The position numbers and the translations under genes are program-made. A stretch of 64,000 nucleotides of DNA from the NCBI RefSeq assembly GCF_023150065.1, contig NZ_JAKLLN010000006.1:186001-250000 (forward strand). The letters run 5' to 3'. The notes under the pieces were generated by a model, which saw only the letters and a program-made list of their open reading frames with translations, searched no databases and was not told where the DNA came from. Below are positions 9,652 to 45,527 of the stretch, in pieces (position 1 is the first letter of the stretch; the number at the start of each line of letters is the position of its first letter). Source of the stretch: Zoogloea sp. (GTDB lineage: Bacteria > Pseudomonadota > Gammaproteobacteria > Burkholderiales > Rhodocyclaceae).

Positions 9652-10185
9652 TTAAGGCTTGGCCGTTGCGCGCGTATTGCTGCGGGGGGCGCGTTTGCGC
9701 TTCTCGGTGGCGCCGGGGGCCGGGCTGGCCGATGGCAGGCTGATGCGCTCCACCGGGCCGTGGGGGCCGGTGATGACCTTGTCGAGCACGGTGTACAGCT
9801 CGTCGATCAGCTCGCGCCCGAGGGCCTCCTCGAGCTTGCGGTACTGGGCCTGGATCAGCGGGGCGATCTCCTCCACCAGCTCGCTGCCCCGGGGGCTCAG
9901 GCGGACGATCACCCGGCGCTGGTCTTCGGGCACCCGGCTGCGGCTGATCACGCCCATGTCGTCCATGCGGGCCAGCACGCCGGCCAGGCTGGGGCTGAGG
10001 ATCTGGCAGATGTCGCAGATCTCCCAGGGTTCGAGCTGCTCGCGCTCGCTCAGCACGCGCAGGATGCGCCACTGCTGCTCGGTGAGCCCGAAGTGGTTGA
10101 GGATGGGGCGGAAGTGGCAGATCAGCTCCTCCCGGGCTTTCAGGAAAAGCTGGGGCAGGTTGCGGTAGGAAATCCTGCTCTGCAT
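9652..10185 (-). CDS. hpaR: MarR-family repressor, HpaR-like
   Basis: The protein has the MarR winged-helix core (about residues 30-135): [30 protein letters not shown] (recognition helix) and the wing [17 protein letters not shown]. The start [13 protein letters not shown] is typical of HpaR, the repressor of homoprotocatechuate/4-hydroxyphenylacetate operons, whose ligands are the arylacetates. The start was set at ATG 10185 ([11 protein letters not shown]); the frame is open further upstream but without family support. It is transcribed divergently from the HpaA-like activator, and the shared gap holds a copy of the putative operator. TATCAT on the minus strand (10239-10244) may be its -10. 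Confidence 0.88.
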
Positions 10186-10248
10186 GGGGTGTCGTGCTCC
10201 TGTGATGGGGGAGCGGAGGCTCCCGTGACCAACGCCCAATGATACCTG

Positions 10249-10272
10249 TTGACTCCCTAACATCGGAGTGAT
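10249..10272 (+). promoter_or_regulatory. Putative HpaR operator, site A, between hpaR and hpaA
   Basis: TTGACT (10249-10254) is followed directly by CCCTAACATCGGAGTGAT. The inner inverted repeat ACTCC/GGAGT (10252-10256 and 10265-10269) fits a MarR dimer site. The same layout recurs at 29525 and 35481. Position in the divergent gap suggests autoregulation of hpaR and control of hpaA. Confidence 0.6.
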
Positions 10273-10283
10273 CTTCTTGCGGC

Positions 10284-11228
10284 ATGTCCGCCGTTGATCC
10301 TGCCGGCCGCTCCGTGGAGCGCCCCCCGTCCATCCCCGACATCCACATCACCCGGATCTACGAGGGGGATCCGGAGTGCGACGTGCATTACGAGACCTTC
10401 GGCCGGCTGGCCGAGATCTTCGGGCGCAACACGTCGGCCCACCGCCACTCGCGCTTCTACCAGGTACATCTGCTGGTGCGCGGCAGCATCAGCCTGCAGC
10501 TGGACGACCAGGCCTATTTTGCCGAGGCGCCGCTGGTCTTCATCACCCCGCCGGCCATCCCCCACGCGTTTTATTCCGAAGAGCACACCGACGGCCACGT
10601 GATCACCGTGCGCCAGGACGTGGTGCGGGCCTGGTACGCGTCCCTGCCCGGGCAGTGGCCGGAGGCCCAGCTGCGCGAGCCGGCTTTTCTGCCCCTGGGC
10701 GGGGCGGCCGGCGAAGTGCAGGCCGAGGCCGCCCGCCTGGTGCAGTTGGCCGAGCTGCTGCAGCAGGAGTTCGGCGGGCGCGGCAAAGGGCGCTCGGCGG
10801 CGGTGCAGGCCCTGGGCCTGTGCTTCTTCATCAGCCTCAACCGCCTGCTCGCCAGCCACGTGCCTGCGCAGCCTCTCAAGCGTGAGCGGGGCGAGGATCT
10901 GCGCATCTTCCTGAGCTTCTGCGACCTGGTCGAGGTGAGCTTCCGCGATCACCTGACCCTGCCTGACTACGCCCGCCAGCTGGCCGTCACCGAGGCCCGC
11001 CTCAACGATGTGTGCCGGCGCATGGCCAACCTGCCCTCCAAAGAGGTGGTCCACGACCGCCTGCTCCAGGAGGCGCGGCGCCTGCTGCGCTTCTCCACCA
11101 CCCCGGTCGGCGAGCTGTCCTACCAGCTCGGTTTTGCCGACCCGGCCTACTTCTCGCGCTTCTTCACCCGGCGGGTGGGCACCACGCCCAGCCAGTTCCG
11201 CATTCAGCACCAGGATCAGATCCGCTGA
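10284..11228 (+). CDS. hpaA: AraC-family activator with cupin sensor, HpaA-like
   Basis: The 314-residue protein has an N-terminal cupin ligand domain (about 20-140; RHSRFYQVHLLVRG, ITPPAIPHAF) and a C-terminal AraC double helix-turn-helix (about 210-310; LPDYARQLAVTEARLNDVCRR, ELSYQLGFADPAYFSRFF). HYETFGRLAEIFGRN near residue 37 is characteristic of HpaA, the 4-hydroxyphenylacetate-responsive activator of the hpaBC hydroxylase in enterobacteria. Here the next genes, 136 bases downstream, encode a phenol hydroxylase rather than HpaBC. No good ribosome site precedes ATG 10284; a GTG at 10314 is an alternative start. Confidence 0.85.
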   Translation: MSAVDPAGRSVERPPSIPDIHITRIYEGDPECDVHYETFGRLAEIFGRNTSAHRHSRFYQVHLLVRGSISLQLDDQAYFAEAPLVFITPPAIPHAFYSEEHTDGHVITVRQDVVRAWYASLPGQWPEAQLREPAFLPLGGAAGEVQAEAARLVQLAELLQQEFGGRGKGRSAAVQALGLCFFISLNRLLASHVPAQPLKRERGEDLRIFLSFCDLVEVSFRDHLTLPDYARQLAVTEARLNDVCRRMANLPSKEVVHDRLLQEARRLLRFSTTPVGELSYQLGFADPAYFSRFFTRRVGTTPSQFRIQHQDQIR

Positions 11229-11246: not shown

Positions 11247-11302
11247 TGGCTTTGAAAAGTACAAGCCAAGGCGCTGATCGTCCATTCACTAACATATTAC
11301 TG
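11247..11302 (+). promoter_or_regulatory. Control region of the phenol hydroxylase operon, with putative operator site B
   Basis: Two signals lie in the 136-base gap. TGGCTT (11247-11252) and AAGCCA (11263-11268) form an inverted repeat that could bind an AraC-type activator. CACTAACATATTACTG (11287-11302) resembles the HpaR-type motif seen at 10255, 29531 and 35487, with two or three changes in its second half. No sigma-54 (-24/-12) element, as used by DmpR-type systems, is seen. Confidence 0.45.
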
Positions 11303-11364
11303 TTTGCTCTAATGCCCCCATGCCGGCGCGTTCGATGCCGGCCGTGCAACCAGGAGGCGGGGCC

Positions 11365-11613
11365 ATGGAAGACCAGCAGTTCGACGTGACGCGCAAGTTC
11401 GTGCGGGTGACCGGTGAGCGTGACGGCGGCCTGGTCGAGTTCGAGTTTTCGGTGGGGGAGCCCGAGCTGGCGGTGGAGCTGATCATGCCCCGCGCCGCCT
11501 TTGAGGCCTTCTGCGCCGACAACCGGGTGACCGTGCTGGACGCGGCATCGGCCCGCCCCGAGGGCGACTTTGCCTGGAACCTCCACGACGCCACCCACCA
11601 GCGCTTCCGCTGA
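11365..11613 (+). CDS. dmpK: Phenol hydroxylase assembly protein DmpK-like
   Basis: The 82-residue protein matches DmpK/PoxA/PhhK, the small subunit needed to assemble active iron-containing oxygenase. It has the family ending DFAWNLHDATHQRFR. The start is ATG 11365, seven bases after AGGAGG (11352-11357); a longer frame from 11320 has no ribosome site. It opens a compact six-gene operon ending at a terminator at 16031. Confidence 0.88.
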   Translation: MEDQQFDVTRKFVRVTGERDGGLVEFEFSVGEPELAVELIMPRAAFEAFCADNRVTVLDAASARPEGDFAWNLHDATHQRFR

Positions 11614-11662: not shown

Positions 11663-12655
11663 ATGAGCATGGATCTTCGCACCATCACCATCGAGCCCCT
11701 ACGGCAGACCTTCGGCCACCTGGCCCGGCGCATGGGGGCCGACAAGCCGGCCTCCCGCTACATGGAAGGCACGATGGACCTGCAGCCGGTGGAGAACTAC
11801 CACTACCGCCCCACCTGGGACCCGTCCCACGACATCTTCGACCCCACCCGCACCCGCGTCACCATGAAGGACTGGTACGCGCTCAAGGACCCGCGCCAGT
11901 TCTTCTACGGCGCCTGGACCCTGGCCCGGGGCCGCATGCAGGAGACCGCCACCGCCGACTTCGACCTGGCCGAGGAGATGGGCCTCGCGGCGGGCTACCC
12001 CGCCGACGGCAAGGCCGTGGTCAATCAGGTGCTGCTGCCCCTGCGCCATGTGGCCTGGGGTTCCAACATCAACAACTCCTACATCGCCGCCTACAGCTAC
12101 GGCATCGCCATCTCCCAGGCCACCGCCTACGCCTGCATGGATCAGCTCGGCATCGCCCAGTTCATCACCCGCCTGGCCATCTCCCTGGACGAGATCGACG
12201 CCCTGGCCGAGGCCAAGCAGGCCTGGCTGAAGGCACCGGCCTGGCAAGGGCTGCGGCATTACATCGAGGACCAGATGGTCATGGATGACTGGTTCGAGCT
12301 CTTCGTGGCCCAGAACTTCGCCCTCGAGGGCCTGCTCTTTCCGCTCATCTACGACAAGCTCAACGACCGGCTCAACGCCGCCCACGGCCCGGTGATGACC
12401 CTGCTCACCCGCTTTCAGCGCGAGTGGTACGCCGAAAACGTGAAGTGGGTGGACGCCGTGCTCAAGGCTGCCGCCGCCGACAACCCCGCCAACAAGGCCC
12501 TGCTGGGCGAGTGGATCCGCGCGGCCCGCCAGCGCTCCATCGAGGTGCTCACCCCGGTGGCCGAACTGGGCTTCGGTGCCGAGGGCGCCGCCGTCCTGGA
12601 CGAGGTCGTCCAGCAACTCGATGCCCGCGCCGCCAAGGCCGGCATCCCCCTGTAA
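11663..12655 (+). CDS. dmpL: Multicomponent phenol hydroxylase, beta oxygenase subunit
   Basis: This 330-residue protein is the non-catalytic beta subunit (DmpL/PhhL, P1) of the alpha2-beta2-gamma2 bacterial multicomponent monooxygenase. The helical ferritin-like fold is shown by blocks such as NYHYRPTWDP, QVLLPLRHVAWGSNINNSY and WFELFVAQNFALEGLLFPLIYD; the diiron ligands are absent, as expected of this subunit. It is 49 bases after dmpK and 11 bases before dmpM. Confidence 0.93.
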   Translation: MSMDLRTITIEPLRQTFGHLARRMGADKPASRYMEGTMDLQPVENYHYRPTWDPSHDIFDPTRTRVTMKDWYALKDPRQFFYGAWTLARGRMQETATADFDLAEEMGLAAGYPADGKAVVNQVLLPLRHVAWGSNINNSYIAAYSYGIAISQATAYACMDQLGIAQFITRLAISLDEIDALAEAKQAWLKAPAWQGLRHYIEDQMVMDDWFELFVAQNFALEGLLFPLIYDKLNDRLNAAHGPVMTLLTRFQREWYAENVKWVDAVLKAAAADNPANKALLGEWIRAARQRSIEVLTPVAELGFGAEGAAVLDEVVQQLDARAAKAGIPL

Positions 12656-12666
12656 AGAGGCTCCCC

Positions 12667-12939
12667 ATGACATCCAACGCCTTCATCGCGTTTCAGAAGA
12701 ACGAAGAGACCCGCTGCATCGTCGAGGCCATCGTCGAGGACAACCCCGCTGCCGTGGTGGTGGATCAGCCCGCCATGGTCAAGGTGGACGTGCCTGGCCG
12801 CCTGGTCATCAAGCGCGCCACCGTGGAAGAAAAGATGGGTCGCGACTTCGACCTGCAGGAGCTGCAGCTCCACCTGATCACCATCTCCGGCCACCTGGAC
12901 GAGAGCGACGACGAGTTCGTCCTGTCCTGGCAGCGCTGA
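12667..12939 (+). CDS. dmpM: Phenol hydroxylase regulatory (effector) protein
   Basis: The 90-residue protein is the cofactor-free coupling protein (DmpM/P2), which binds the oxygenase and tunes the diiron centre. It carries NAFIAFQKNEETRCIVEAI and the block MGRDFDLQELQLHLITISG typical of the family. The start at ATG 12667 follows AGAGG by seven bases; the open frame runs far upstream inside dmpL and should not be used. Confidence 0.92.
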   Translation: MTSNAFIAFQKNEETRCIVEAIVEDNPAAVVVDQPAMVKVDVPGRLVIKRATVEEKMGRDFDLQELQLHLITISGHLDESDDEFVLSWQR

Positions 12940-12962: not shown

Positions 12963-14507
12963 ATGGACATGAAAGTTGCCAAGAAGCTCGGCCTCAAGGA
13001 GCGCTACACCATGATGACCCGGGATCTGGCCTGGGACACCACCTTCCAGCCGATGGACAAGGTCTTCCCCCAGGTGGGCTACGAAGGCATCAAGATTCAC
13101 GACTGGGACAAGTGGGAAGACCCCTTCCGCCTGACCATGGACGCCTACTGGAAATACCAGGCCGAGAAGGAGCGCAAGCTCTACGCCATTCTCGATGCCT
13201 TCAACCAGAACAACGGCCACCTGTCGGTTACCGACGCCCGCTACATCAACGTGCTCAAGCTCTTCCTGGGCTCCACCCCGCCGCTGGAACTGATGGCTGC
13301 CCGCGGCTTCAGCATGGTGGCCCGCCAGATGGTCGGCGCCGGCCCCCGCGTGGCCTGCATGATGCAGTCGGTGGATGAGTACCGCCACTTCCAGACCCAG
13401 ATCCACTCCATCAGCAACTACAACCGCTTCTACAACGGCCTGGACGAGTTCGCCCACCAGCAGTCGCGCATGTGGTACCTGTCGGACGGCAAGTCCTTCT
13501 TCGACGACGCCATCACCGCCGGCCCCTTCGAGTTCATGGTGGCCATCGGCTTCGCCTTCGAATACGTGCTGACCAACATCCTGTTCGTGCCCTTCATCTC
13601 GGGTGCCGCCTACAACGGCGACATGGCCGCCATGACCGTGGGCTTCTCGGCCCAGTCGGACGAGGCCCGCCACATGACCCTGGGCCTGGAGTGCATCAAG
13701 TTCATGCTCGAACAGGACCCGGACAACCTGCCCATCGTGCAGCGCTGGATCGACAAATGGACCTGGCGCGGCACCCGCAAGCTGGCTTCGGTGGGCATGA
13801 TGATGGACTACATGCTGCCCAAGCGGATCATGAGCTTCAAGGAAGCCTGGGAGATCTACTTCGAGCAGAACGGCACCGCCCTGTTCACCGATCTGGCCCG
13901 CTACGGCATCAAGGTGCCCAAGTGCTTCGAGCAGACCATCGAGGAGAAGGAGCACATCACCCACCAGTCGTGGATCGGCTTCTACATGAAGCCCGACGCC
14001 ACCCCCTTCCATACCTGGATGCCCCAGCCGGAAGAGCTCGACTGGCTGTCCGAGAAATACCCCAACACCTTCGACAAGTACTACCGCCCGGTGTACGAGT
14101 ACTGGATCGAGCAGGAGAAGGCCGGCAACCGCTTCAACAACAAGACCCAGCCCATGAACTGCCAGGTCTGCGTGTCCACCATCAAGTTCAACGAGCCCGG
14201 CGACCCGATGGAGATGTGCTTCCGCGAGACGGAGTACAAGGGCGAGAAGTTCCACTTCTGCTCCGACCACTGCAAGGAGATCTTCGAGGACGAACCCGAG
14301 AAGTACGTGCAGACCTTCATCTCGTCCCACGCCGCCCTGCAGGGCAAGTGCGAGCCTGAAGGCACCGACGTGAATGCCCACGACTACCGCCCGGGCGCCC
14401 GCATGCACGCCTACTGGCGCATGGACAAGCGCGCCAGCGGCGACTTCAACGGCTCGGAAGACCAGAAGAACTTTGCCAAGTGGCGCGCCCAGGCCACCCG
14501 GAACTGA
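12963..14507 (+). CDS. dmpN: Multicomponent phenol hydroxylase, diiron alpha subunit
   Basis: The 514-residue catalytic subunit carries both carboxylate-bridged diiron motifs, DEYRH (about residue 138) and DEARH (about residue 235). A C-terminal YHS-type zinc site (MNCQVCV and FCSDHCKEIFEDEPEKYV) is also present, as in DmpN. It hydroxylates aromatic rings with molecular oxygen, using electrons from DmpP and coupling by DmpM. The start is ATG 12963 after AGGAGA; the frame extends upstream only by chance. Its context beside HpaA-like and hpa genes suggests a phenolic arylacetate or arylamine rather than simple phenol as the natural substrate. Confidence 0.95.
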   Translation: MDMKVAKKLGLKERYTMMTRDLAWDTTFQPMDKVFPQVGYEGIKIHDWDKWEDPFRLTMDAYWKYQAEKERKLYAILDAFNQNNGHLSVTDARYINVLKLFLGSTPPLELMAARGFSMVARQMVGAGPRVACMMQSVDEYRHFQTQIHSISNYNRFYNGLDEFAHQQSRMWYLSDGKSFFDDAITAGPFEFMVAIGFAFEYVLTNILFVPFISGAAYNGDMAAMTVGFSAQSDEARHMTLGLECIKFMLEQDPDNLPIVQRWIDKWTWRGTRKLASVGMMMDYMLPKRIMSFKEAWEIYFEQNGTALFTDLARYGIKVPKCFEQTIEEKEHITHQSWIGFYMKPDATPFHTWMPQPEELDWLSEKYPNTFDKYYRPVYEYWIEQEKAGNRFNNKTQPMNCQVCVSTIKFNEPGDPMEMCFRETEYKGEKFHFCSDHCKEIFEDEPEKYVQTFISSHAALQGKCEPEGTDVNAHDYRPGARMHAYWRMDKRASGDFNGSEDQKNFAKWRAQATRN

Positions 14508-14518: not shown

Positions 14519-14881
14519 ATGACCCAGCTGAAAACCCTGGCCCCCTACGACTTCCCCTCCAGCGACGCTGTCGACAACTACGCCGGCCGCCAGCTGCTGT
14601 ACATCAACTGGGAGCGTCACCGCATGTTCTCCCGGCCCTTCGTGCTGGCCCTGCCGCCGGAGACCCTGTTTGGCGAGATCATCGACACCCACATGACAGA
14701 CTGCTTCAGCTATCACCCCGACTGGGCGCAGATCGACTGGAGCGCGGTGCAGTGGCTCAACGGCAGCCGCCCGGTCGTGCTCGATCGCAACAAGAGCCTG
14801 GCGGACAACGGCATCGGTCACAAGGACCTGATCCGCTTCATCACCCCCGGTCTCGACGGCATCGCCGGCTCGGGCTACTGA
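14519..14881 (+). CDS. dmpO: Phenol hydroxylase gamma subunit
   Basis: The 120-residue protein is the small gamma subunit (DmpO/P4) of the oxygenase. It shows KTLAPYDFPSSDAVDNYAGRQLLYINWERH and the ending RFITPGLDGIAGSGY-like C-terminus in split blocks typical of the family. ATG 14519 lies seven bases after GAGGAG. It is 11 bases downstream of dmpN and 10 bases upstream of dmpP. Confidence 0.92.
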   Translation: MTQLKTLAPYDFPSSDAVDNYAGRQLLYINWERHRMFSRPFVLALPPETLFGEIIDTHMTDCFSYHPDWAQIDWSAVQWLNGSRPVVLDRNKSLADNGIGHKDLIRFITPGLDGIAGSGY

Positions 14882-14891: not shown

Positions 14892-15953
14892 ATGAGTTAC
14901 GAGCTGACCATCGAGCCCCTCGGCCGCAGCATCGAGGTCGAGGAGGGCCAGACCATCCTCGACGCCGCCCTGCGCGCCGGCATCTTCCTGCCCCACGCCT
15001 GTGGCCAGGGCTACTGCGCCACCTGCAAGGTCACCGTGACCGATGGCGAGGTGGACCAGGGCAACGCCTCCAACTTCGCCCTGATGGACTACGAGCGTGA
15101 CGAAGGCAAGGTGCTGGCCTGCTGCGCAAAGCTCGAGTCCGACCTGGTCATCGAGGCCGAGATCGAGACCGACGACGACGCCCGCGACATCCCGGTGCGG
15201 GACTATCACGGCGTGGTGAGCCGCATCGAAGACCTGACGCCCACCATCAAGGGCGTGTGGATCACCCTCGATGACGGTGAGCACCTGGACTTCCAGGCCG
15301 GCCAATATGTGAACCTGCAGCTGCCCAATGACATGGGCGTGCGCGCCTTCTCCCTGGCCAACCCGCCTTCGGCGGGCAACGAGGTGGAGCTGAACATCCG
15401 CATCGTCCCCGGCGGGGCAGGCACCACCTGGATCCACCAGTCTCTCGGGGTGGGAGACCGCCTGTCTCTCAGCGGGCCCTACGGGCGCTTCTTCGTGCGC
15501 CGCTCGGCAGGCCTGCCGTCCCTGTTCATGGCTGGTGGTTCCGGCCTGTCGAGCCCGCGCTCCATGATCCTCGACCTGCTGGAAAGCGGCAGCCCCGAGC
15601 CGATCACCCTGGTCTACGGCGCCCGCAACCAGGCCGAGCTGTACTACCACGACGCCTTCCTGGCTCTGGCGGCGCAGCACCCGGGCTTCAGCTATGTGCC
15701 GGCCTTGTCCGAGGAGCCCGCCGACAGCGACTGGAGCGGCTTCCGCGGCTATGTGCATGAGGCCGCCCGGGCCCACTTCGACAATGACTTCCGCGGCCAC
15801 AAGGCCTACCTGTGCGGCCCCCCGATCATGATCGAGGCCTGCATTTCGACGCTGATGCAGGGGCGCCTGTTCGAGCGGGACATCTACACCGAAAAGTTCT
15901 TTTCCGCCGCCGACGCCCAGCAGGTGCGCAGCCCCCTGTTCAAACGCGTCTGA
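14892..15953 (+). CDS. dmpP: Phenol hydroxylase reductase (2Fe-2S/FAD/NADH)
   Basis: The 353-residue electron-transfer component has an N-terminal plant-type ferredoxin with cysteines in CGQGYCATC (about residues 37-45) and a fourth in LACCAK (about 77). The FAD domain (about 105-205) has RAFSLANPP and the NAD domain (about 210-340) has LFMAGGSGLSSPRSMI and YLCGPPIMIEA. It passes electrons from NADH to the diiron alpha subunit. It is the last gene of the operon: no dmpQ ferredoxin or dmpB catechol dioxygenase follows. Confidence 0.95.
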   Translation: MSYELTIEPLGRSIEVEEGQTILDAALRAGIFLPHACGQGYCATCKVTVTDGEVDQGNASNFALMDYERDEGKVLACCAKLESDLVIEAEIETDDDARDIPVRDYHGVVSRIEDLTPTIKGVWITLDDGEHLDFQAGQYVNLQLPNDMGVRAFSLANPPSAGNEVELNIRIVPGGAGTTWIHQSLGVGDRLSLSGPYGRFFVRRSAGLPSLFMAGGSGLSSPRSMILDLLESGSPEPITLVYGARNQAELYYHDAFLALAAQHPGFSYVPALSEEPADSDWSGFRGYVHEAARAHFDNDFRGHKAYLCGPPIMIEACISTLMQGRLFERDIYTEKFFSAADAQQVRSPLFKRV

Positions 15954-15993: not shown

Positions 15994-16031
15994 CGGGTAT
16001 CCGCCCTGGTGGTGGATACCCGTTTTTTTTT
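15994..16031 (+). terminator. Rho-independent terminator of the dmp operon
   Basis: A perfect nine-base stem CGGGTATCC/GGATACCCG (15994-16002 and 16014-16022) is followed by nine T residues. It fits directly after dmpP, and confirms that the operon has six genes. Confidence 0.93.
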
Positions 16032-16224: not shown

Positions 16225-16246
16225 CATATTACTAATATGTTAATAA
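16225..16246 (+). promoter_or_regulatory. AT-rich palindrome, putative operator site C
   Basis: CATATTACTAATATG (16225-16239) is a perfect 15-base palindrome in an otherwise GC-rich gap. Read on the minus strand, 16229-16246 gives TTATTAACATATTAGTAA, close to site B and to the HpaR-like motif. It lies 35 bases before the EutR-like regulator. The rest of the 15954-16280 gap holds only the dmp terminator. Confidence 0.45.
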
Positions 16247-16280: not shown

Positions 16281-17279
16281 ATGAACCTGATCCTTGAATC
16301 TGCCGTCGGGCATGGCGCGGTCCGGTACCGCGAGAGCCGCAACGCCGATGTGGACCAGCAGGCCGCTGCGCTCATCTACGAGCGCTGGGGGCAGCGTTAC
16401 GACCAGCTCTCCCCGGGGCGCTTCGCCGGCTCCATGGACGAGATCCAGCTGCCCGCCCTGACCCTGATCCGCGAGACCAGCAACCGGGTGATCCTGCAGA
16501 AGGGCTGCACGCCGCCGGGGGTGTTCGCCATCGGCGCCGTGCTCAGCCAGGAGGATCACGGCTATCACTGCGGCGAGCTCATGCGGCCGCGCTCGGCGGC
16601 CCTGCTCGACCCGAAGACCGAGTTCGAGATCCGGACCCCCGAGAGTTTCGACCTGGTGGCGGCCGTGTTCTCGCCGCGGGAGCTGTGCGCCCATCTCGAC
16701 GACCCGACCATCGATCACCGGGAGCTTGAGAACGACCTGCTCAAGAGCGCCAAGATCATCGATCGGGCCTACCCGGGCCTGCTCGCCGATTTTCTGCTGC
16801 GGGCCTTCGAGAGCAGCCGCGAGAACTCGGAATACCTGCTGATCCCCTCCAACCTCAAGCAGCTGGCGGAGGAGTTCTATGCCCTGCTCAACGAAACGGT
16901 CAGCGCGGGGCAGGGGGCGCAGGCTGCCGGGGTGTGCCCCAACCGGGAGCGCATCGTGCGCCGGGTGCGGCGCTTTCTGGATGCCAACCCCGAGTCGGCC
17001 CTCAGCATCACCGACATCTGCGACGAGGTCGGGGTGACGCGCCGGACCTTGCAGAACGCCATCCAGGAGGTCTTCGGCATCTCGCCCCAGCACTACCTCA
17101 AGGCGATCCGCCTCAACGGCTTCCGCCGCGCCCTCAAGGCCCGCGACCCCCTGCGCGAATCCATCGGCGACGTGGCGGCGCACTGGGGCTTCTGGCACCT
17201 GTCCCAGCTGGCCCAGGACTATCGCCGCCTGTTCGGCGAACTGCCGTCCCAGACGGGCACCCGCCGGCTCCATTCCTGA
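16281..17279 (+). CDS. AraC-family regulator, EutR-like
   Basis: The 332-residue protein has an N-terminal sensor domain without an evident cupin and a C-terminal AraC double helix-turn-helix (about 225-325: ALSITDICDEVGVTRRTLQNAIQEVFGISPQHYLKAIRLNGFR in split form and HWGFWHLSQLAQDYRRLFGELPS). The HTH resembles EutR, the ethanolamine-responsive activator, so an amine ligand is plausible. It is 92 bases upstream of the aromatic amine dehydrogenase operon in the same direction, which makes it the prime candidate activator of that operon. ATG 16281 was chosen; the frame begins there. Confidence 0.82.
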   Translation: MNLILESAVGHGAVRYRESRNADVDQQAAALIYERWGQRYDQLSPGRFAGSMDEIQLPALTLIRETSNRVILQKGCTPPGVFAIGAVLSQEDHGYHCGELMRPRSAALLDPKTEFEIRTPESFDLVAAVFSPRELCAHLDDPTIDHRELENDLLKSAKIIDRAYPGLLADFLLRAFESSRENSEYLLIPSNLKQLAEEFYALLNETVSAGQGAQAAGVCPNRERIVRRVRRFLDANPESALSITDICDEVGVTRRTLQNAIQEVFGISPQHYLKAIRLNGFRRALKARDPLRESIGDVAAHWGFWHLSQLAQDYRRLFGELPSQTGTRRLHS

Positions 17280-32266: not shown

Positions 32267-32278
32267 CAGGGAGAGAAC

Positions 32279-36299: not shown

Positions 36300-37060
36300 G
36301 GTTCGGACGCATCGCCTGGCAGGGCGCCATTCACGAAGTGACCCCGGGCGCGGACGGCCGTGTCCGGCTGGCCGACGGCCGCGAGATCGCCGAAGGGCGC
36401 TTCACCTGGCTGCCGCCGGTGGAGGTGGGCACCGTCTTCGCCCTCGGCCTCAACTACGCCGACCACGCCAGGGAGCTGGCCTTCAAGGCCCCCGAGACGC
36501 CCCTGGTCTTCCTCAAGGGGGCCAACGCCATCACCGGCCACAAGGCCTTCAGCCGCCGCCCGGCTGATGCGACCTACATGCACTACGAGTGCGAGCTGGC
36601 GGTGGTGATCGGCAAGACCGGCTACCGGATCGCCAAGGAAGACGCCATGGAGCACGTGGCCGGCTACAGCGTGGCCAACGACTACGCCATCCGCGACTAC
36701 CTGGAAAACTACTACCGGCCCAACCTGCGGGTGAAGAACCGCGACGCCTGCACGCCGCTGGGCCCCTGGCTGGTGACCCGGGACGAGATCGCCGACCCGA
36801 TGAAGCTGGCCCTGACCACCCGGGTGAATGGCAAGACCACCCAGCAGGGCACCACCGCCGACATGATCTTCGACATCCCGACGCTGATTGCCTACCTGTC
36901 GTCCTTCATGACCCTCAACCCGGGCGACGTGATCCTGACCGGTACCCCCGAAGGCCTGGCCGATGTGAAGGCCGGCGACGTGGTCGAAACCGAGATCGAG
37001 GGCGTGGGCTGCCTCATCAACACCATCGTCGATGACCAGACCTGGTTCGCCAACGCATAA
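36296..37060 (+). CDS. hpaG2: Homoprotocatechuate pathway isomerase/decarboxylase, C-terminal-type subunit
   Basis: The 254-residue FAH-family enzyme has GLNYADHARELAF, PLVFLKGANAITG, the metal-binding Glu pair in YECELAVVIGK and the block GDVILTGTPEGLADVKAGDVV. It is the second half of the HpaG function. The start ATG overlaps the hpaG1 stop and hpaE follows 16 bases on. Confidence 0.9.
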   Translation: MRFGRIAWQGAIHEVTPGADGRVRLADGREIAEGRFTWLPPVEVGTVFALGLNYADHARELAFKAPETPLVFLKGANAITGHKAFSRRPADATYMHYECELAVVIGKTGYRIAKEDAMEHVAGYSVANDYAIRDYLENYYRPNLRVKNRDACTPLGPWLVTRDEIADPMKLALTTRVNGKTTQQGTTADMIFDIPTLIAYLSSFMTLNPGDVILTGTPEGLADVKAGDVVETEIEGVGCLINTIVDDQTWFANA

Positions 37061-37076
37061 GGAAAGCGAGAACAGC

Positions 37077-38531: not shown

Positions 38532-38651
38532 CCGAAACCCAGGGGGCAAGGGCGAGCGCATGAGAACCCGCCCGGCCCCCGTCTCCGGCAGAGAGCCGTC
38601 CCCTAGCTTTAGCGGACTCACCCACACCACCGGAATTTGAAGGAGAACACC

Positions 38652-39500
38652 ATGGGCACACTCGCCCTCGCCGCCAAGATCACCCACGTGCCGTCCATGT
38701 ACCTGTCGGAGATGGAAGGCGAACACAAGGGCTGCCGCCAGGCGGCCATCGACGGTCACATCGAGATCGGCCGCCGCTGCCGCGAGCTGGGCGTGGACAC
38801 CATCGTGGTGTTCGACACCCACTGGCTGGTCAACTCGGGCTACCACGTCAATTGCGCGCCGAAGTTCGAGGGCATCTACACCAGCAACGAGCTGCCTCAC
38901 TTCATCCGCAACCTGCCCTTTGCCTACGACGGCAACGAGGCGCTGGGCCACCTGCTGGCCGACGCCGCCACCGCCGCCGGTGTGCGCACCCGTGCCCACT
39001 CCGACACCAGCCTGGCCCCCGAGTACGGCACCCTGGTACCCATGCGCTACATGAACGCCGACCGCCACTTCAAGGTGGTATCGGTGTCGGCCCTGTGCAC
39101 GGTGCACAACCTCGAAGATTCGGTGAAGCTCGGCGCCGCCATGGCCAAGGCCGTCAAGGAGCAGTACGACGGCAAGGTGGCCTTCCTGGCCTCCGGCTCC
39201 CTGTCGCACCGCTTTGCCCAGAACGGCGTGTCCGAGCAGTTCCTGCACAAGATGTGGAGCCCCTTCCTCGAGACCGTCGACCACGCCGTGGTGGAGATGT
39301 GGAAGAACGGCGACTGGAAGACCTTCTGCGCCATGCTCCCCGAGTACGCCGACAAGTGCCACGGCGAGGGCAACATGCACGACACCGCCATGCTGCTGGG
39401 CGCCCTCGGCTGGGATGCCTACCAGGGCAAGGTCGAGGTCGTGACCCCCTTCTTCCCCAGCTCCGGCACCGGCCAGATCAACGCGATCTTCCCGGTCTGA
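38652..39500 (+). CDS. hpaD: Homoprotocatechuate 2,3-dioxygenase (class III extradiol)
   Basis: The 282-residue enzyme begins MGTLALAAKITHVPSMYLSE, nearly the same as enterobacterial HpaD, and belongs to the LigB-type (class III) extradiol dioxygenases rather than the vicinal-oxygen-chelate class. Iron-ligand candidates include the His in ITHVPSM and DTHWLVN and a distal Glu. It opens the 3,4-dihydroxyphenylacetate ring next to the hydroxyls. AAGGAGA precedes the ATG; the 120-base gap after hpaE holds no evident terminator. Confidence 0.94.
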   Translation: MGTLALAAKITHVPSMYLSEMEGEHKGCRQAAIDGHIEIGRRCRELGVDTIVVFDTHWLVNSGYHVNCAPKFEGIYTSNELPHFIRNLPFAYDGNEALGHLLADAATAAGVRTRAHSDTSLAPEYGTLVPMRYMNADRHFKVVSVSALCTVHNLEDSVKLGAAMAKAVKEQYDGKVAFLASGSLSHRFAQNGVSEQFLHKMWSPFLETVDHAVVEMWKNGDWKTFCAMLPEYADKCHGEGNMHDTAMLLGALGWDAYQGKVEVVTPFFPSSGTGQINAIFPV

Positions 39501-39520: not shown

Positions 39521-39910
39521 ATGCCGCATCTGATCTACGAATACACCGACAACCTGAAGGCCGAGGGCGACATCCCCGGCCTGCTCAGAAAGACCAACCA
39601 GGTCGTCCTGGACCAGGGCGGCGTGTTCCCCAAAGGCGGCATCCGCTCCCGGGCCATCTGCCTTGCCGACTACTGCGTGGCCGATGGCTCGGCCGACGAC
39701 GCCTTCGTGCACCTCACCTTCAAGATGGGGGCGGGGCGCACGGCGGAAGAGAAGCAGAAGGTGGGCGACGAACTCTTCGCCATGCTCAAGGCCCACTTTG
39801 CCGACATCTTTGCCCGCCGCGGCCTGGCCCTCTCGATGGAGATCGTCGAGTTCTCGGAAGCCGGGACCTGGAAGCACAACAACATCCACGCCCGCTTCAA
39901 GAAAAGCTGA
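39521..39910 (+). CDS. hpaF: 5-Carboxymethyl-2-hydroxymuconate delta-isomerase
   Basis: The 129-residue protein begins MPHLIYEYTDNL, so Pro2 would be the catalytic amino-terminal proline of this tautomerase-like family once Met is removed. It isomerises 5-carboxymethyl-2-hydroxymuconate before decarboxylation by HpaG. CAGGAG lies upstream of ATG 39521. Confidence 0.92.
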   Translation: MPHLIYEYTDNLKAEGDIPGLLRKTNQVVLDQGGVFPKGGIRSRAICLADYCVADGSADDAFVHLTFKMGAGRTAEEKQKVGDELFAMLKAHFADIFARRGLALSMEIVEFSEAGTWKHNNIHARFKKS

Positions 39911-39931: not shown

Positions 39932-40735
39932 ATGCTGAGCACCGACATCCATCTCGACCTGGCGCGCCAGCTGCACGCCGCCGAAAAGGCCCGCGAGCAG
40001 ATCCTCGCCCCGTCCCTGCAGCACCCGGACATCACCATCGAGGACGCCTACGCCGTCCAGAAGACCTGGGTGGGCCTCAAGCTCGCCGAGGGCCGGGTCA
40101 TCAAGGGCCACAAGATCGGCCTCACCTCCCGCGCCATGCAGCAGTCGTCCCAGATCGACGAGCCCGACTACGGCACCCTGCTGGATGACATGTTCTTCCA
40201 TGACGGCGCCGACATCCCCGCCGGGCGCTTCATCGCCCCCATGGTGGAGGTGGAGCTGGCCTTCGTGCTGGGCAAGCGCCTGGAGGGCACCGAGCTGACC
40301 CTGCTCGACGTGATCACCGCCACCGACTACGTGATCCCCGCCATCGAGATCATCGATGCCCGCTGCCATCGGGTGGACCCCGCCACCAAGCGCCCGCGCA
40401 AGGTCTTCGACACCATCTCCGACAACGCCGCCAATGCCGGCATCGTGATGGGCGGCCGGCCCATCAAGCCCATGGACGTGGACCTGCGCTGGGTGTCGGC
40501 GCTGCTCTACCGCAACGGCGTGATCGAGGAGACCGGCGTGGCCGCCGGCGTGCTCAACCACCCGGCCAACGGCATCGCCTGGCTGGCCCGCAAGTTTGCC
40601 CCCCACGGGGTGGCCCTGGAGCCGGGGCAGGTGATCCTCGCCGGCTCCTTCACCCGGCCCGTGCCGGCGCGCCCCGGCGACACCTTCCACGTGGATTACG
40701 GCACCCTGGGTGCCATCACCTGCCGCTTCGGCTGA
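39932..40735 (+). CDS. hpaH: 2-Oxohept-4-ene-1,7-dioate hydratase
   Basis: The 267-residue protein belongs to the MhpD/HpaH hydratase family. Landmarks are [23 protein letters not shown] in split form, [13 protein letters not shown] with metal-binding Glu residues and [16 protein letters not shown] at the C-terminus. It adds water to the dienoate formed by HpaG. AAGGAG precedes it and hpaI follows 16 bases on. Confidence 0.92.
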
Positions 40736-40751
40736 GCCCCGGAGACCCGCC

Positions 40752-41549
40752 ATGCAGATGCCCCAGAACACCTTCAAGCGCGCCCTCCAGGCCGGCGAGA
40801 CCCAGATCGGCGTCTTCCTGGGCCTGTGCGACCCCTACAGCGCCGAGCTGATGGCCGGCACCGGCTTCGACTGGCTGCTGATCGACGGCGAACACGCCCC
40901 CAACACCCCGGAGAGCGTGATGCGCCAGCTCCAGGCCATCGCCAGCTACCCGGTGCGCAGCGTGGTCCGTACCGTCGACCACGACGCCGCCCGCATCAAG
41001 CAGTATCTGGACGTGGGCGTGCAGACCCTGCTGGTGCCCATGGTCGAATCCGCCGACGAGGCCCGCGCCCTGGTGCGTGCCATGCGCTACCCGCCCAACG
41101 GCATCCGCGGCGTGGGCACGGCCCTGGCCCGGGCGGCCCGCTGGAATGGGGTGGAGGGCTACTTCGCCCAGGCCGACGCCGAGATGTGCCTGATCGTGCA
41201 GGTGGAGTCCCGCGCCGGTCTGGCCGCCCTGGATGAGATCCTGGCGGTGGAGGGCATCGACGCCGTCTTCATCGGCCCCGCTGATCTGGCCGCATCCCTC
41301 GGCCACCTGGGCAATCCGGGCCACGAAGAGGTCAAGGCCGTGATCGCCGACGCCCTGGCGCGCATCCGCCAGTCCGGCAAGGGGGCTGGCGTGTTTTCGG
41401 CCGATCCGGCTGCCGCCGCCCGCTACCTGGAAAGCGGCGCGTCCTTCATCGCCGTGGGCGTTGACACCCTGCTGCTGCGCAACGCTGCCGTGGCCCTGGC
41501 TGCCCGCTTCAAGGACGCGGGTGCCGGCAAGGCAGGCGCCGCCTACTGA
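40752..41549 (+). CDS. hpaI: 4-Hydroxy-2-oxoheptane-1,7-dioate aldolase
   Basis: The 265-residue class II aldolase has [11 protein letters not shown], the metal/pyruvate region [15 protein letters not shown] and [17 protein letters not shown]. It splits its substrate to pyruvate and succinate semialdehyde, ending the meta pathway. The start at ATG 40752 follows GGAGA; the frame upstream overlaps hpaH and is not used. Confidence 0.93.
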
Positions 41550-41600: not shown

Positions 41601-43055
41601 ATGCTCGACCTCAAGGACCCCTCCCTGCTGCGGCAGGCCTGCTACATCGACGGCCAGTGGATCGGCGCCGACAGCGGCGAGACCTTTCCGGTGACCAACC
41701 CCGCCACCGGCGCCGTCATCGCCACGGTGCCGCGCTGCGGTGTCGCCGAGACCGAGCGCGCCGTCCAGGCCGCCGACCGGGCCTTTGCCACCTGGCGCGA
41801 GACCACCGCCGCCGAGCGCGCCCGCATCCTGCGCCGCTGGTTCGACCTGATGCTCACCCACCAGGACGACCTGGCCCGCATCATGACCCTGGAGCAGGGC
41901 AAGCCCCTGGCCGAGGCGAAAGGCGAGATCGCCTACGCCGCCGCCTACGTCGAGTGGTTTGCCGAGGAGGCGCGCCGGGCCTATGGCGACGTGATCCCGT
42001 CGCCTCTGCGTGACCGCCAGATCGTGGTCACCAAGGAGCCGGTGGGCGTCTGCGCCGCCATCACCCCGTGGAATTTCCCCTCGGCCATGATCACCCGCAA
42101 GGTGGCGCCGGCCCTGGCTGCCGGCTGCACCATCGTGCTCAAGCCGGCCGAGCAGACGCCCCTGTCGGCCCTGGCTCTGGCCGAGCTGGCCGAGCGCGCC
42201 GGCGTGCCGGCCGGCGTGTTCAGCGTGGTCACCGGCAAGGCCAGCGCCATCGGCGGCGTGATGACCGGCAGCCCGCTGGTGCGCAAGCTCACCTTCACCG
42301 GCTCCACCGGCATCGGCCGCCTGCTGATGGAGCAGTGCGCGCCCACCATCAAGAAGCTGTCCCTGGAGCTGGGCGGCAACGCCCCCTTCATCGTCTTCGA
42401 CGACGCCGACGTGGATGCGGCGGTGGCGGGGGCCATCGCCTCCAAGTACCGCAACGCCGGCCAGACCTGCGTGTGCAGCAACCGCTTCCTGGTGCAGGAC
42501 GGTATTTACGAGCAGTTCGCGGAAAAGCTCGCCGCCGCCGTGGCCCTGCTGAAGGTGGGCAACGGCCTGGAGGAGGGCGTGACCCAGGGGCCGCTGATCG
42601 ACGGGCCGGCCATCGCCAAGGTGGAGAGCCTGGTGAACGACGCCGTGGCCAAGGGCGCCCGGGTGGTCTCCGGCGGCAAGCGCCATGCCCTGGGCGGCAC
42701 CTGGTTCGAGCCCACCGTGCTGGCCGACGTGAGCCGCGACATGGAGGTGGCCCGGGAGGAGATCTTCGGCCCGGTGGCGCCCCTGTTCCGCTTCAAGACC
42801 GAAGACGAGGCCGTCGCCATGGCCAACGACACCGAGTTCGGCCTGGCCGCCTACTTCTACTCGAAGGACCACGCCCGCGTGTGGCGCGTGTCGCGCCGGC
42901 TGGAGTACGGCATGGTGGGCATCAACACCGGCCTGATCTCCACCGAGGTGGCGCCCTTTGGCGGCGTGAAGAGCTCCGGCACCGGCCGCGAGGGCTCCAA
43001 GTACGGCCTGGATGAGTACATGGAAGTGAAATACCTGGCCCTGGGCGGGCTGTGA
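41601..43055 (+). CDS. gabD: Succinate semialdehyde dehydrogenase
   Basis: The 484-residue ALDH has PWNFPSAMITRK, FTGSTGIGRLL, LELGGNAPFIVFDDADVD and the nucleophile in NAGQTCVCSNRF, the pattern of GabD-type enzymes. In this place it converts the succinate semialdehyde released by HpaI into succinate. AAGGAAA precedes ATG 41601 and its stop overlaps the next gene. Confidence 0.9.
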   Translation: MLDLKDPSLLRQACYIDGQWIGADSGETFPVTNPATGAVIATVPRCGVAETERAVQAADRAFATWRETTAAERARILRRWFDLMLTHQDDLARIMTLEQGKPLAEAKGEIAYAAAYVEWFAEEARRAYGDVIPSPLRDRQIVVTKEPVGVCAAITPWNFPSAMITRKVAPALAAGCTIVLKPAEQTPLSALALAELAERAGVPAGVFSVVTGKASAIGGVMTGSPLVRKLTFTGSTGIGRLLMEQCAPTIKKLSLELGGNAPFIVFDDADVDAAVAGAIASKYRNAGQTCVCSNRFLVQDGIYEQFAEKLAAAVALLKVGNGLEEGVTQGPLIDGPAIAKVESLVNDAVAKGARVVSGGKRHALGGTWFEPTVLADVSRDMEVAREEIFGPVAPLFRFKTEDEAVAMANDTEFGLAAYFYSKDHARVWRVSRRLEYGMVGINTGLISTEVAPFGGVKSSGTGREGSKYGLDEYMEVKYLALGGL

Positions 43056-44263
43056 CGCCCGGCCGGGCGGGTACGGCCGGGGAGGGCCGCTTCATCCTGT
43101 TGCTCGGGGCCCTGGTGGCCTTCGGGCCGCTGGCCGTCGACCTCTATCTGCCGGCCCTGCCCGCCATCGCCGCGGGCCTGGGCAGCGGGGCGGAGGCCGT
43201 GCAGGCCACGGTGACGGTGTTCCTGGCGGGCTTCTCCCTGGGCATGCTGGGCTACGGGCCCATTTCCGATCGCTACGGGCGGCGCCCGGTGATGCTCGCC
43301 GGCATTGCGCTGTTCGTGCTGGCCAGCCTGGCCTGCGCGCTGGCGGTGGACGTGGGCAGCCTGGTGCTGGCGCGCTTTCTCCAGGCGCTGGGGGGCGGGG
43401 CGGCGTCGGTGCTGGCCCGGGCGGTGGTGCGCGACGTGTATGCCTCCACCGAGGCGATCCGCAAGCTGTCCCTGATGGCCATGGTGACCGCCATCGCGCC
43501 CCTGCTGGCGCCGCTGGTGGGGAGCCTGGCCCTGGCGGCGGGGGGCTGGCGCGCCACCTTCGCGCTGCTGGTGGTGTGGGGCGTGGCCTGCCTGTACGGG
43601 GTGTGGGCCCATCTGCCGGAAACCCTGGCGCCGGAGCGGCGGGGCCAGCTGGGCCTGAAGGCGGCTTTCGGTGCCTATCTGCAGCTGCTCCGCGACCCGG
43701 TTGCCATCGGCCTGCTGCTGGCGGGGGGCATGTCGTTTGCGGCGATGTTTGCCTACATCACCGGCGGCCCCTTTTACTTCATCACCCTCCACGGCCTGTC
43801 GCCCACCCAGTACAGCCTGATCTTCGCGGCCAACGCGGTGGGCATCTTCCTGGCCAACTTCATCAACAGCCGGCTGGTGAAGCGCCTCGGCCCGCCGGCC
43901 CTGATCGGCGCGGGCTGCCTGCTGGGCCTGGCGGGGGCGCTGGTGTTGCCCCTGGTGGTGGCATCAAACCTGCCGGCGAGCATCGCTGCCCTGTTCGTGG
44001 TGGTCAGCGTTACCGGGCTCCTCGGCGCCAACTGCGTGGGCTTGCTGATGCAGGCCTATCCCCGCAACGCGGGGGCTGCGGCGGCTTTGTTCGGGGCGTC
44101 CCAGTTCGGCTTCGGCATGCTCGCCAGCGGGGCGGTGGGGCTGCTGCACGATGGCACCGGGCGGCCCATGGCGGGGGTCATCGGCGCCGCCGCCCTGCTG
44201 TCGGTCGCGGGCTACCTGCTCCAGCGTTTTCGTCGTGCGGATGGCGCGACCCGTGATACATAG
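43052..44263 (+). CDS. MFS transporter, Bcr/CflA-type
   Basis: The 403-residue protein has 12 predicted helices, the MFS motif A in GPISDRYGRRPVM (about residues 70-82) and the overall pattern of Bcr/CflA drug exporters. The GTG start overlaps the gabD stop by four bases (GTGA), so it belongs to the hpa operon. It could expel toxic catechols or aldehydes, or import a substrate; direction is not shown. Confidence 0.83.
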   Translation: MTPGRAGTAGEGRFILLLGALVAFGPLAVDLYLPALPAIAAGLGSGAEAVQATVTVFLAGFSLGMLGYGPISDRYGRRPVMLAGIALFVLASLACALAVDVGSLVLARFLQALGGGAASVLARAVVRDVYASTEAIRKLSLMAMVTAIAPLLAPLVGSLALAAGGWRATFALLVVWGVACLYGVWAHLPETLAPERRGQLGLKAAFGAYLQLLRDPVAIGLLLAGGMSFAAMFAYITGGPFYFITLHGLSPTQYSLIFAANAVGIFLANFINSRLVKRLGPPALIGAGCLLGLAGALVLPLVVASNLPASIAALFVVVSVTGLLGANCVGLLMQAYPRNAGAAAALFGASQFGFGMLASGAVGLLHDGTGRPMAGVIGAAALLSVAGYLLQRFRRADGATRDT

Positions 44264-44267
44264 GGAC

Positions 44268-45527
44268 ATGTCTGCCATCGATCCGTCCTTTCGCCGTCTT
44301 CCGGGCCCCTTGCGGGCCCTTGAACATCGTAACTTCCGCCTGTATTTCCTGGGCCAGGCCGTGTCCATCCTGGGTTCATGGATCCAGCAGGTGGCCATGG
44401 CCTGGCTGGTCTATCGCCTCACCGGCTCGGCGGCCCTGCTGGGGGTGACCGCCTTCGCCGCGCTGATCCCGCAGCTGCTGGTGGGCCCGCTGGCCGGGGC
44501 GTGGATCGACAAGCACGACAAGCGCCGCTGGCTGCTGCGGGTGCAGGGCCTGCTGGCCGCCCAGGCCCTGGTGCTGGCGGGGCTCACCTGGGCCGGCTGG
44601 GTGGGGCCAGGCCTGCTGGTGGGCATGGCGGTGCTGCTGGGGGTGCTCAACAGCTTCGACACGCCCCTGCGCCAGTCCCTGATCAGTGTTTTCGTGGAGC
44701 GCAGGGAGGATCTGCCCAATGCCCTGGCGCTCAATGCCATGCTCTTCAACACCGGGCGCTTCATCGGCCCGCCGGTGGCGGGGCTGCTGCTCGGCCTCAC
44801 GTCGGAGGCGGCGTGCTTTGCCCTCAATGCCGTCACCTTTCTGGCCCTGTTCGTGGCCGTGGCGTCGGTGAAGGTGCCGGCCACGCCCCGCGCCGAGGGC
44901 TCGGTGGGGGACGTGTTCAAGGAGGGGCTGGCCTACGCCTGGCATACCTGGCCGGTGCGCACGCTCATCGTCGTGCTGATGGCCCTCAACCTGACGGCCT
45001 CGGCCTACGCGGTGCTTCTGCCGGTGTTTGCCGCGGAGGTGTTTGCCGGCGATGCGCGCACCCTGGGCTGGCTATGGGGGGCGGCGGGTTGCGGGGCCTT
45101 CGGATCGACGATCTTCCTGGCCACCCGGCGCTCGGTGCCGGGGCTGATCGGGGCGATCAGCGTGGGGACGGCGGTCAGCGCCGTGGCCTTGCTGGCCTTC
45201 GGGTGGACCCGCCTGCTGCTGGTGGCCATGGCGGCCATGGTGGCCCTGGGGTTCGGCATCTCGGTGTGCAACGTGGGCATCAACATGCTGCTGCAGAGCA
45301 TGGCGCCGGACCGCCTGCGGGGGCGCATCGTGTCCTTCTTCACCTCGGCCCGTTTCGGTTTTGATGCCCTCGGCGGTCTGCTCGCCGGCTTCGTCGCCAG
45401 CGCCATCGGGCCCGGGCGGACGATGATCGTGGAGGGGGTGGTGCTGCTGGGTTTCGTGGCCTTCCTGGCGAGCCGGCGGGCGCGGCTGGCGGGGCATGTG
45501 GCGCGGCACGATTCGGACGCGGGCTGA
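44268..45527 (+). CDS. MFS transporter, EntS-like (MFS_3)
   Basis: The 419-residue protein has about 12 helices and starts with RALEHRNFRLYFLGQAVSILGSWIQQVAMAWLVYRL in split blocks, characteristic of the enterobactin-exporter-like MFS_3 family. ATG 44268 lies four bases after the previous stop with TAGGGA just before it. It is the last gene before a 104-base gap and probably the end of the hpa operon. Substrate unknown. Confidence 0.8.
   Translation: MSAIDPSFRRLPGPLRALEHRNFRLYFLGQAVSILGSWIQQVAMAWLVYRLTGSAALLGVTAFAALIPQLLVGPLAGAWIDKHDKRRWLLRVQGLLAAQALVLAGLTWAGWVGPGLLVGMAVLLGVLNSFDTPLRQSLISVFVERREDLPNALALNAMLFNTGRFIGPPVAGLLLGLTSEAACFALNAVTFLALFVAVASVKVPATPRAEGSVGDVFKEGLAYAWHTWPVRTLIVVLMALNLTASAYAVLLPVFAAEVFAGDARTLGWLWGAAGCGAFGSTIFLATRRSVPGLIGAISVGTAVSAVALLAFGWTRLLLVAMAAMVALGFGISVCNVGINMLLQSMAPDRLRGRIVSFFTSARFGFDALGGLLAGFVASAIGPGRTMIVEGVVLLGFVAFLASRRARLAGHVARHDSDAG

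Follow-up and report, generated by a model that had tools for sequence, protein, structure and literature searches.

Which enzyme forms homoprotocatechuate from 4-hydroxyphenylacetate in a locus where the activator gene hpaA is followed not by hpaBC, the genes of the two-component flavin hydroxylase, but by an operon of the phenol hydroxylase type? This question is raised by the 64,000-nucleotide stretch of Zoogloea-like DNA analysed here (the window), which belongs to a 5.25 Mb assembly of 251 contigs that is 97.85% complete. In the window, hpaR and hpaA lie head to head (9652-11228) and are followed by dmpKLMNOP, which extends to 15953, by an AraC gene and by an aromatic amine dehydrogenase (AADH) operon. 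Further downstream lie DUF1329/DUF1302/RND genes, an aldehyde dehydrogenase gene, a liv-type ABC transporter, the genes hpaG1, G2, E, D, F, H and I, and a gene for succinate-semialdehyde dehydrogenase (SSADH). We propose, with a probability of roughly 0.8, that dmpKLMNOP (11320-15953) codes for a multicomponent diiron enzyme, a 4-hydroxyphenylacetate 3-hydroxylase, which took the place of HpaBC and was recruited to the HpaR/HpaA regulon. Some bacteria of soil and water would then open the degradation of 4-hydroxyphenylacetate with an iron enzyme. By sequence the enzyme falls within the phenol hydroxylase family, and we infer that it works like HpaBC; its substrate, regulation and electron path are deduced from gene neighbours, control sites and evolution.

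A dmp operon in the place of hpaBC

The window operon has the PF02332 alpha subunit with six iron ligands and the K-L-M-N-O-P gene order that define the phenol hydroxylase group, and its DmpN matches the phenol hydroxylase structure 2inn with 676 bits. The preliminary description of this DNA had placed the operon after hpaA, where hpaBC would be expected, and this placement is borne out by E. coli WG5, the one genome in which the hpaA-hpaBC order was compared. Its order is hpaR, hpaG E D, isomerase, H I X, hpaA, hpaB and reductase, and dmpK directly follows hpaA in the window as hpaB does in WG5. The window HpaA is 41% identical to that of E. coli. A class-level sample yielded no further hpaA-hpaBC comparison, as HpaA was matched in only 2 of 369 genomes, our own and G354 (197 bits, below the cut-off); PF11794, the HpaB family, was matched in 23 of the 369, and these matches are unclassified.

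The same description had asked whether hpaBC homologues exist elsewhere in the genome. A PF11794 search of the whole assembly returned a single HpaB-family protein and no true HpaB. This protein scores 118 bits against TIGR02309 (cut-off 480) and 68 bits against TIGR02310 (cut-off 885), the two HpaB models. Its best solved structures are vinylacetyl-CoA isomerase (287 bits) and a dehydratase/isomerase of γ-aminobutyrate metabolism (274 bits), against 101 bits for HpaB. It is also the only match in the genome to an E. coli HpaB query (23% identity), and its gene adjoins that for aspartate ammonia-lyase. Within the 97.85% complete assembly, an HpaBC elsewhere in the genome was rejected, since the sole candidate is isomerase-like.

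For B. xenovorans LB400, an FAD monooxygenase only distantly related to E. coli HpaB is proposed as the 4-hydroxyphenylacetate hydroxylase in an excerpt of PMC3053370. Given this precedent for a different type of flavoprotein, we searched our genome for PF01494 proteins and obtained eight matches. Five were classified, as a 2-hydroxybiphenyl-monooxygenase-like protein, an MhpA, two Ubi hydroxylases and a halogenase/QhpG-like protein, and three weak ones (27-41 bits) lie outside this classification. The nearest in kind is the MhpA-like flavoprotein, which adjoins MhpR- and MhpD-type genes and has no solved relative at E 1e-40. None of the five classified proteins was suitable, and a flavoprotein hydroxylase of the B. 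xenovorans type was rejected.

On contig C111 of our genome, a further DmpN lies next to a catechol 2,3-dioxygenase, and contig C229 holds PaaA/PaaC, so that phenol and phenylacetate have other candidate routes. In all, four multicomponent monooxygenase loci were seen (contigs C111, C66, C174 and C218 included): that of the window, the one linked to catechol 2,3-dioxygenase, a divergent DmpN beside a periplasmic binding protein, and one of the toluene-monooxygenase type.

The main text of a 2024 review describes 4-hydroxyphenylacetate hydroxylase as a two-component flavin enzyme and does not use the words 'diiron', 'non-heme' or 'multicomponent' (PMC10816480). Among open-licence papers in PubMed Central (PMC), no diiron 4-hydroxyphenylacetate hydroxylase was found by title or by the beginning of the abstract.

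A DmpN clade linked to hpaA

The nearest 80 DmpN loci in named genomes fall into two groups, 33 at 84-98% identity (the clade) and 47 at 67-73% (the controls). In a quick tree without bootstrap, the window and 32 clade rows share one branch with a stem of 0.58 and a support of 100 in the Shimodaira-Hasegawa-like approximate likelihood ratio test (SH-aLRT). Locus L090, which is cut at a contig end, is outside the DmpN alignment, the tree and the operator scan, and is included in the context counts.

The two groups differ sharply in their surroundings. A hpaA gene accompanies 31/33 clade loci and none of the 47 controls, and hpaR 29/33 and 0/47, respectively; catechol 2,3-dioxygenase, by contrast, occurs in 0/33 clade loci and in 40/47 controls, and a hidden Markov model (HMM) scan found none in the operon region of the window. 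The two clade loci without hpaA are L051, whose contig is too short, and L049 of Leeia oryzae. The gap between hpaA and dmpK is below 500 bp in 28 of the 31 loci that have both. Genes hpaG2, hpaE or hpaD lie within the locus in nine of the 33. Four loci, L050, L054, L068 and L173 (the last an extended piece of the L052 genome), run from hpaR-hpaA-dmpKLMNOP through three genes that by eye, with no HMM assignment, resemble a TRAP transporter, to hpaG1 and the rest of the hpa lower pathway.

Because the hydroxylase stays with hpaA while amine genes come and go, 4-hydroxyphenylacetate is favoured over tyramine as the substrate. Hydroxylation of tyramine or of 4-hydroxyphenylacetaldehyde, ahead of acid formation, would accord with the amine operon present in the window and in 10/33 clade loci. 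We regard it as highly improbable, given the clade loci that hold the lower pathway and no amine genes: aauA and aauB had no match at the locus in L050, L054, L068 and L173, the rest of these genomes not having been searched for amine genes. A terminator-like site and a separate HpaR-like operator between the dmp and amine units also argue against it, as does the periplasmic location of AADH. The separate clade, the hpaA linkage, the co-occurrence with hpaD and the HpaR-like operators support the replacement of HpaBC that the preliminary description had suggested; of the two substrates named there, tyramine is disfavoured by the amine-free loci.

The clade is carried by Zoogloea, Dechloromonas, Azonexus, Leeia and an alphaproteobacterial metagenome-assembled genome (MAG), a spread that makes horizontal transfer likely. 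The MAG locus (L072, labelled Ancalomicrobiaceae, Alphaproteobacteria) has hpa genes upstream of hpaA-dmp, and reflects either transfer or a binning error.

Residues near the diiron centre

With residue 1 of DmpN set at the codon at 12984, the diiron ligands E102, E132, H135, E193, E227 and H230 are all present, and T197 is kept. Around them the clade has changed. T98, found in all 33 clade rows and replaced by I or V in the 47 controls, pairs with I100 of toluene/o-xylene monooxygenase (ToMO) in both alignments. L103 (Y in controls), K266 (V in controls), Y133 and I199 are fixed near the ligands, and D168-G169 is fixed where all 47 controls have V-P. A106 occurs in 32/33 clade rows (H in 47/47 controls), F136 in 32/33, and S269 in 30/33 (L or I in the controls). 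The place of S269 is unsure, as it pairs with residue 270 in one alignment and with 272 in the other. I100 and L272 line the substrate or oxygen channel. Not every difference is novel, since A106 and F285 are shared with the toluene-type TmoA of our own genome. As read from the alignments, the changes fit an altered, more polar pocket without proving which substrate it takes.

These data bear on whether an ordinary phenol or cresol hydroxylase merely lies among hpa genes by chance. The 2inn match and the classical gene order would suit such an enzyme, and hpa clusters without a hydroxylase do occur in the family (see below). We nevertheless consider this very unlikely. The clade and its nearest relatives are cleanly divided by their neighbours, hpaA in the one and catechol 2,3-dioxygenase in the other; the stem of the clade is long, and residues next to the ligands have changed and become fixed; an HpaR-like operator precedes dmpK; and the genome has another DmpN beside catechol 2,3-dioxygenase.

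A shared HpaR-like operator

With one mismatch or none allowed, the palindrome TAACATATTA is found at three places in the 64 kb (0.03 expected), before dmpK, the AraC/amine unit and hpaG1. A longer form, ACTAACATANTAGT, scanned with up to two mismatches, picks up a further site ahead of the ABC transporter and gave no hit in 10 first-order shuffles. This longer palindrome has 54 positions across the 593,777 bp of 32 clade loci and none across the 823,576 bp of the 47 control loci, and 20 of the 32 clade loci scanned have it within 100 bp before the dmpK match.

The palindrome also stands beside hpaR in seven of nine hydroxylase-free hpa loci (L160-L166), where no hpaA was seen. In E. coli, TTAA-CATA-TTAA lies 44 bp before hpaG, and HpaR footprints in Yersinia, given as TTAA-N4-TTAA, are called similar to E. 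coli W in an excerpt of PMC7180172. HpaR is therefore the likely binder of the window palindromes, with the dmp operon as a likely target. A separate HpaR-like operator precedes the liv-type ABC transporter of the window, in place of which relatives carry TRAP-like genes. This transporter may import 4-hydroxyphenylacetate.

Related diiron enzymes can hydroxylate twice, and the operon might therefore act mainly on phenylacetate or 3-hydroxyphenylacetate, perhaps in two hydroxylations. E. coli HpaBC itself also accepts 3-hydroxyphenylacetate, according to an excerpt of PMC3053370. For phenylacetate, however, the genome has PaaA/PaaC, and the excerpted text of PMC10364317 states that HpaA of Serratia binds 4-hydroxyphenylacetate (28.5 µM) and not phenylacetate. 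A main role on either compound appears very improbable; 3-hydroxyphenylacetate is a possible additional substrate.

Co-occurrence with hpaD and HpaB across genomes

The lower pathway accompanies the clade at the level of whole genomes. We found hpaD in 33 of 36 distinct clade genomes, that is, in 30 of 33 together with G112, G147 and G222. In a sample of the family, hpaD was present in 8/8 clade genomes, six of them from one genus, and in 7/64 genomes with other DmpN (Fisher 5e-7, kinship ignored). Many clade genomes (L052, L055, L057, L060, L068, L173 and others) have a second hpaD gene, which in several of them forms a tandem with the first; this second copy shares 53-55% identity with the window HpaD.

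A PF11794 search of 39 genomes found no protein in 33 and one protein in each of six; after removal of four repeats with identical coordinates, 30 of 35 distinct genomes lack PF11794 and five have it. Three of the five proteins are 71-94% identical to the isomerase-like protein of our genome, and that of L125, with a low HpaB score (160 bits), was called isomerase-like from this score alone. The fifth, in G184 (= G257), is taken up below. In the class assignment of 35 HpaB-family loci, L138, L141, L143, L148, L157 and L158 are outside, and L125 and L132 were re-read. It seems quite probable that a subfamily of bacterial multicomponent diiron monooxygenases took on 4-hydroxyphenylacetate, a carboxylated phenol, as its physiological substrate and replaced HpaBC, to which it is not homologous, under the control of HpaR/HpaA, and that it is the only visible candidate in most carriers, by which we mean Zoogloea, Dechloromonas, Azonexus and other proteobacterial genomes.

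Evidence weighing against the proposed function

Several observations count against a diiron 4-hydroxyphenylacetate hydroxylase. The first concern HpaB and the hydroxylase-free clusters. Seven of nine family genomes with hpaD and without clade DmpN also lack a PF11794 protein; G130 and G161 have an HpaB-1-like protein (354-355 bits, cut-off 480). Because most of these hpaD genomes lack HpaB too, its absence taken singly is not evidence for a diiron substitute. No hydroxylase was seen beside hpaG in the five hpa loci read (L159, L160, L161, L163 and L166), which have transporter or other genes there, and a hpa cluster does not by itself demand an adjoining hydroxylase. The protein of G184, a clade genome, is HpaB-2-like (650 bits, cut-off 885), although it lies away from the hpa genes; among solved proteins it matches chlorophenol-4-monooxygenase best (624 bits), with E. 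coli-type HpaB at 602-604.

Other points concern the linkage itself. The clade loci are of one origin, so the linkage counts are not independent. The hpaA-dmpK gap is 2.0, 7.4 and 1.4 kb in L055, L058 and L069, and hpaD was not found in three of the 33 clade genomes searched, all three MAGs. In Leeia oryzae (L049), no hpa gene occurs in the 20 kb that hold the clade dmp operon; the genome has two hpaD genes. The operator consensus was derived from the window itself, and four of the 32 clade loci have no operator at two mismatches. Among the DmpN residues, K266 is no more than a candidate for contact with the carboxylate. Finally, a table row in PMC10364317 prints 4-hydroxybenzoic acid in place of 4-hydroxyphenylacetate. 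The hydroxylase-free clusters and this discrepancy slightly lower our estimate for a diiron 4-hydroxyphenylacetate 3-hydroxylase.

The telling contrast is that hpaA and the hydroxylase come together: hpaA had no match in any of the nine hpa loci without clade DmpN. Clusters L160-L166 combine hpaR with TRAP-like genes and have no hpaA or hydroxylase gene close by; their substrate may be homoprotocatechuate itself, or the hydroxylase may be encoded elsewhere.

Organization of the locus

The features of the window are collected in Table 1. The preliminary description had listed an amine dehydrogenase, an aldehyde dehydrogenase, HpaR/HpaA-type regulators and the whole homoprotocatechuate route to pyruvate and succinate, and HMM matches, structure matches and position confirm that they are present in that place. 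For the homoprotocatechuate meta pathway, HpaD, HpaE, HpaG2 and HpaH all exceed their HMM cut-offs. The 'supercluster' named there consists of several transcription units, as judged by the strong terminator-like site 3' of dmpP and the separate operator copy for each unit.

Table 1. Features of the window, with positions, strands and basis of assignment.
Feature	Position	Strand	Basis or remark
hpaR, MarR-type repressor	9652..10263	-	TIGR02337 136.3 bits, cut-off 121.2
Weak HpaR-like operator, hpaR/hpaA region	10256..10269	+	3 mismatches, at which shuffled sequence also yields 0-2 sites per 64 kb
hpaA, AraC/XylS activator	10284..11228	+	TIGR02297 300 bits, cut-off 274.65
HpaR-like operator ACTAACATATTACT, before dmpK	11288..11301	+	
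dmpK-like subunit	11320..11613	+	PF06099 97.4 bits; later start 11365 possible
dmpL-like beta subunit	11663..12655	+	PF02332 190.8 bits
dmpM-like effector protein	12667..12939	+	Position; 77-98% identity in clade loci (tblastn); no HMM match
dmpN-like catalytic alpha subunit	12963..14507	+	PF02332 222 bits, YHS 50 bits
dmpO-like gamma subunit	14519..14881	+	Position; 55-95% identity in clade loci (tblastn)
dmpP-like 2Fe-2S/FAD reductase	14892..15953	+	BenC, MmoC, AntC families 191-208 bits, all below cut-offs
Terminator-like stem (12 pairs) and T run, 3' of dmpP	15994..16022	+	
HpaR-like operator ATTAACATATTAGT, before AraC/amine unit	16231..16244	-	
AraC-family regulator, putative role	16281..17279	+	EutR-/AndR-like matches below cut-off
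aauB, AADH heavy chain	17372..18559	+	Closer to AADH structure than to methylamine dehydrogenase (MADH)
mauE-like	18561..19106	+	PF07291 78.9 bits
mauD-like, thioredoxin fold	19103..19717	+	Weak thioredoxin matches below cut-off; position
aauA, AADH light chain	19721..20257	+	TIGR02659 168.8 bits, cut-off 196.85; structure match
Cytochrome c	20254..20721	+	PF00034 48.5 bits
Second cytochrome-c-like gene	20734..21165	+	CxxCH motif; no Pfam match
Aldehyde dehydrogenase	27854..29386	+	Aminobutyraldehyde (422 bits) and phenylacetaldehyde (409 bits) dehydrogenase families, both below cut-offs
HpaR-like operator ACTAACATCGTAGT, before ABC transporter	29532..29545	+	
liv-type ABC transporter, candidate uptake system	29581..34824	+	Substrate predicted
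HpaR-like operator ACTAACATAGTAGT, before hpaG1	35511..35524	-	Weaker copy at 35488
hpaG1	35628..36299	+	TIGR02305 222.0 bits, just below cut-off 228.65
hpaG2	36296..37060	+	TIGR02303 370.7 bits, cut-off 276
hpaE	37032..38531	+	TIGR02299 724.6 bits, cut-off 638
hpaD, homoprotocatechuate 2,3-dioxygenase	38637..39500	+	TIGR02298 476.5 bits, cut-off 316
hpaF	39521..39910	+	Position and size only; open frame where E. coli has its isomerase gene
hpaH	39932..40735	+	TIGR02312 455 bits, cut-off 352
hpaI	40710..41549	+	TIGR02311 361.6 bits, just below cut-off 368.8
SSADH	41601..43055	+	TIGR01780 749.9 bits, cut-off 646

The true start of hpaR is probably further in, as the HMM match begins only at residue 35. 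In the amine unit, the heavy chain scores 314 bits against solved AADH and 147 against MADH, and the light chain 203 and 162 bits, respectively. A methylamine dehydrogenase was ruled out on these scores. The two small cytochrome-c-like genes after aauA (20254-21165) may accept electrons from the amine dehydrogenase, and the aldehyde dehydrogenase (27854..29386) is predicted to convert arylacetaldehyde to arylacetate. The DUF1329, DUF1302 and RND genes (21257-26884) form a block within the amine region that is kept in several relatives. Two MFS transporters also lie in this run of genes. Further along the window, at 52200-59808, a leucine/isovalerate pathway is probably encoded by genes for an acyl-CoA dehydrogenase, a carboxyltransferase, a biotin carboxylase and an AMP-ligase.

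Proposed mechanism and significance

In the mechanism that we propose, HpaR would act on one type of palindromic operator to repress the dmp operon and, with it, the amine unit, the ABC transporter and the lower pathway, and HpaA, on sensing 4-hydroxyphenylacetate, would switch on the dmp operon. NADH would supply electrons that DmpP passes on to the diiron centre of DmpN, and DmpN, together with DmpK, L, M and O, would add one oxygen ortho to the phenolic hydroxyl group. The product, homoprotocatechuate, would then be broken down to pyruvate and succinate by HpaD, E, F, G1/G2, H and I and SSADH. Tyramine would enter by way of AADH and then the aldehyde dehydrogenase.

If this is correct, two unrelated enzymes exist for the 3-hydroxylation of 4-hydroxyphenylacetate, a textbook step, and a charged compound joins the substrates of the diiron monooxygenase family. 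Annotation would change for operons now read as phenol hydroxylase: the genomes that carry them may be listed as phenol degraders and as unable to grow on 4-hydroxyphenylacetate and tyramine. The comparison of 33 with 47 sequences also supplies residue changes for switching the substrate of an enzyme that is of interest in biocatalysis.

Comparison with known systems

Like the genes of HpaBC, the window dmp operon follows hpaA without a gene between, and it would serve the same pathway step. Its enzyme differs in belonging to an unrelated family and in using a diiron centre where HpaBC uses a flavin cofactor, and its own assembly yielded no HpaB. With DmpKLMNOP-type phenol hydroxylases the operon shares the gene order, the PF02332 subunits, the six diiron ligands, T197, the YHS domain and the FAD/2Fe-2S reductase. 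Unlike them, its DmpN belongs to a clade of its own, with hpaA and hpaR nearby and not catechol 2,3-dioxygenase. The hpa-meta operon of E. coli and Yersinia has the same lower-pathway genes, a divergent hpaR and operator arms 4 bp apart. The upper enzyme in the window, however, is a different one, and the lower operon lies ~20 kb past dmpP, with the amine and transport units between. Finally, the heavy and light chains of the amine dehydrogenase are closer to the structures of AADH, as in Alcaligenes faecalis, than to those of MADH, whereas the window operon differs from that system in continuing with two cytochrome-c-like genes and in having an HpaR-like operator upstream.

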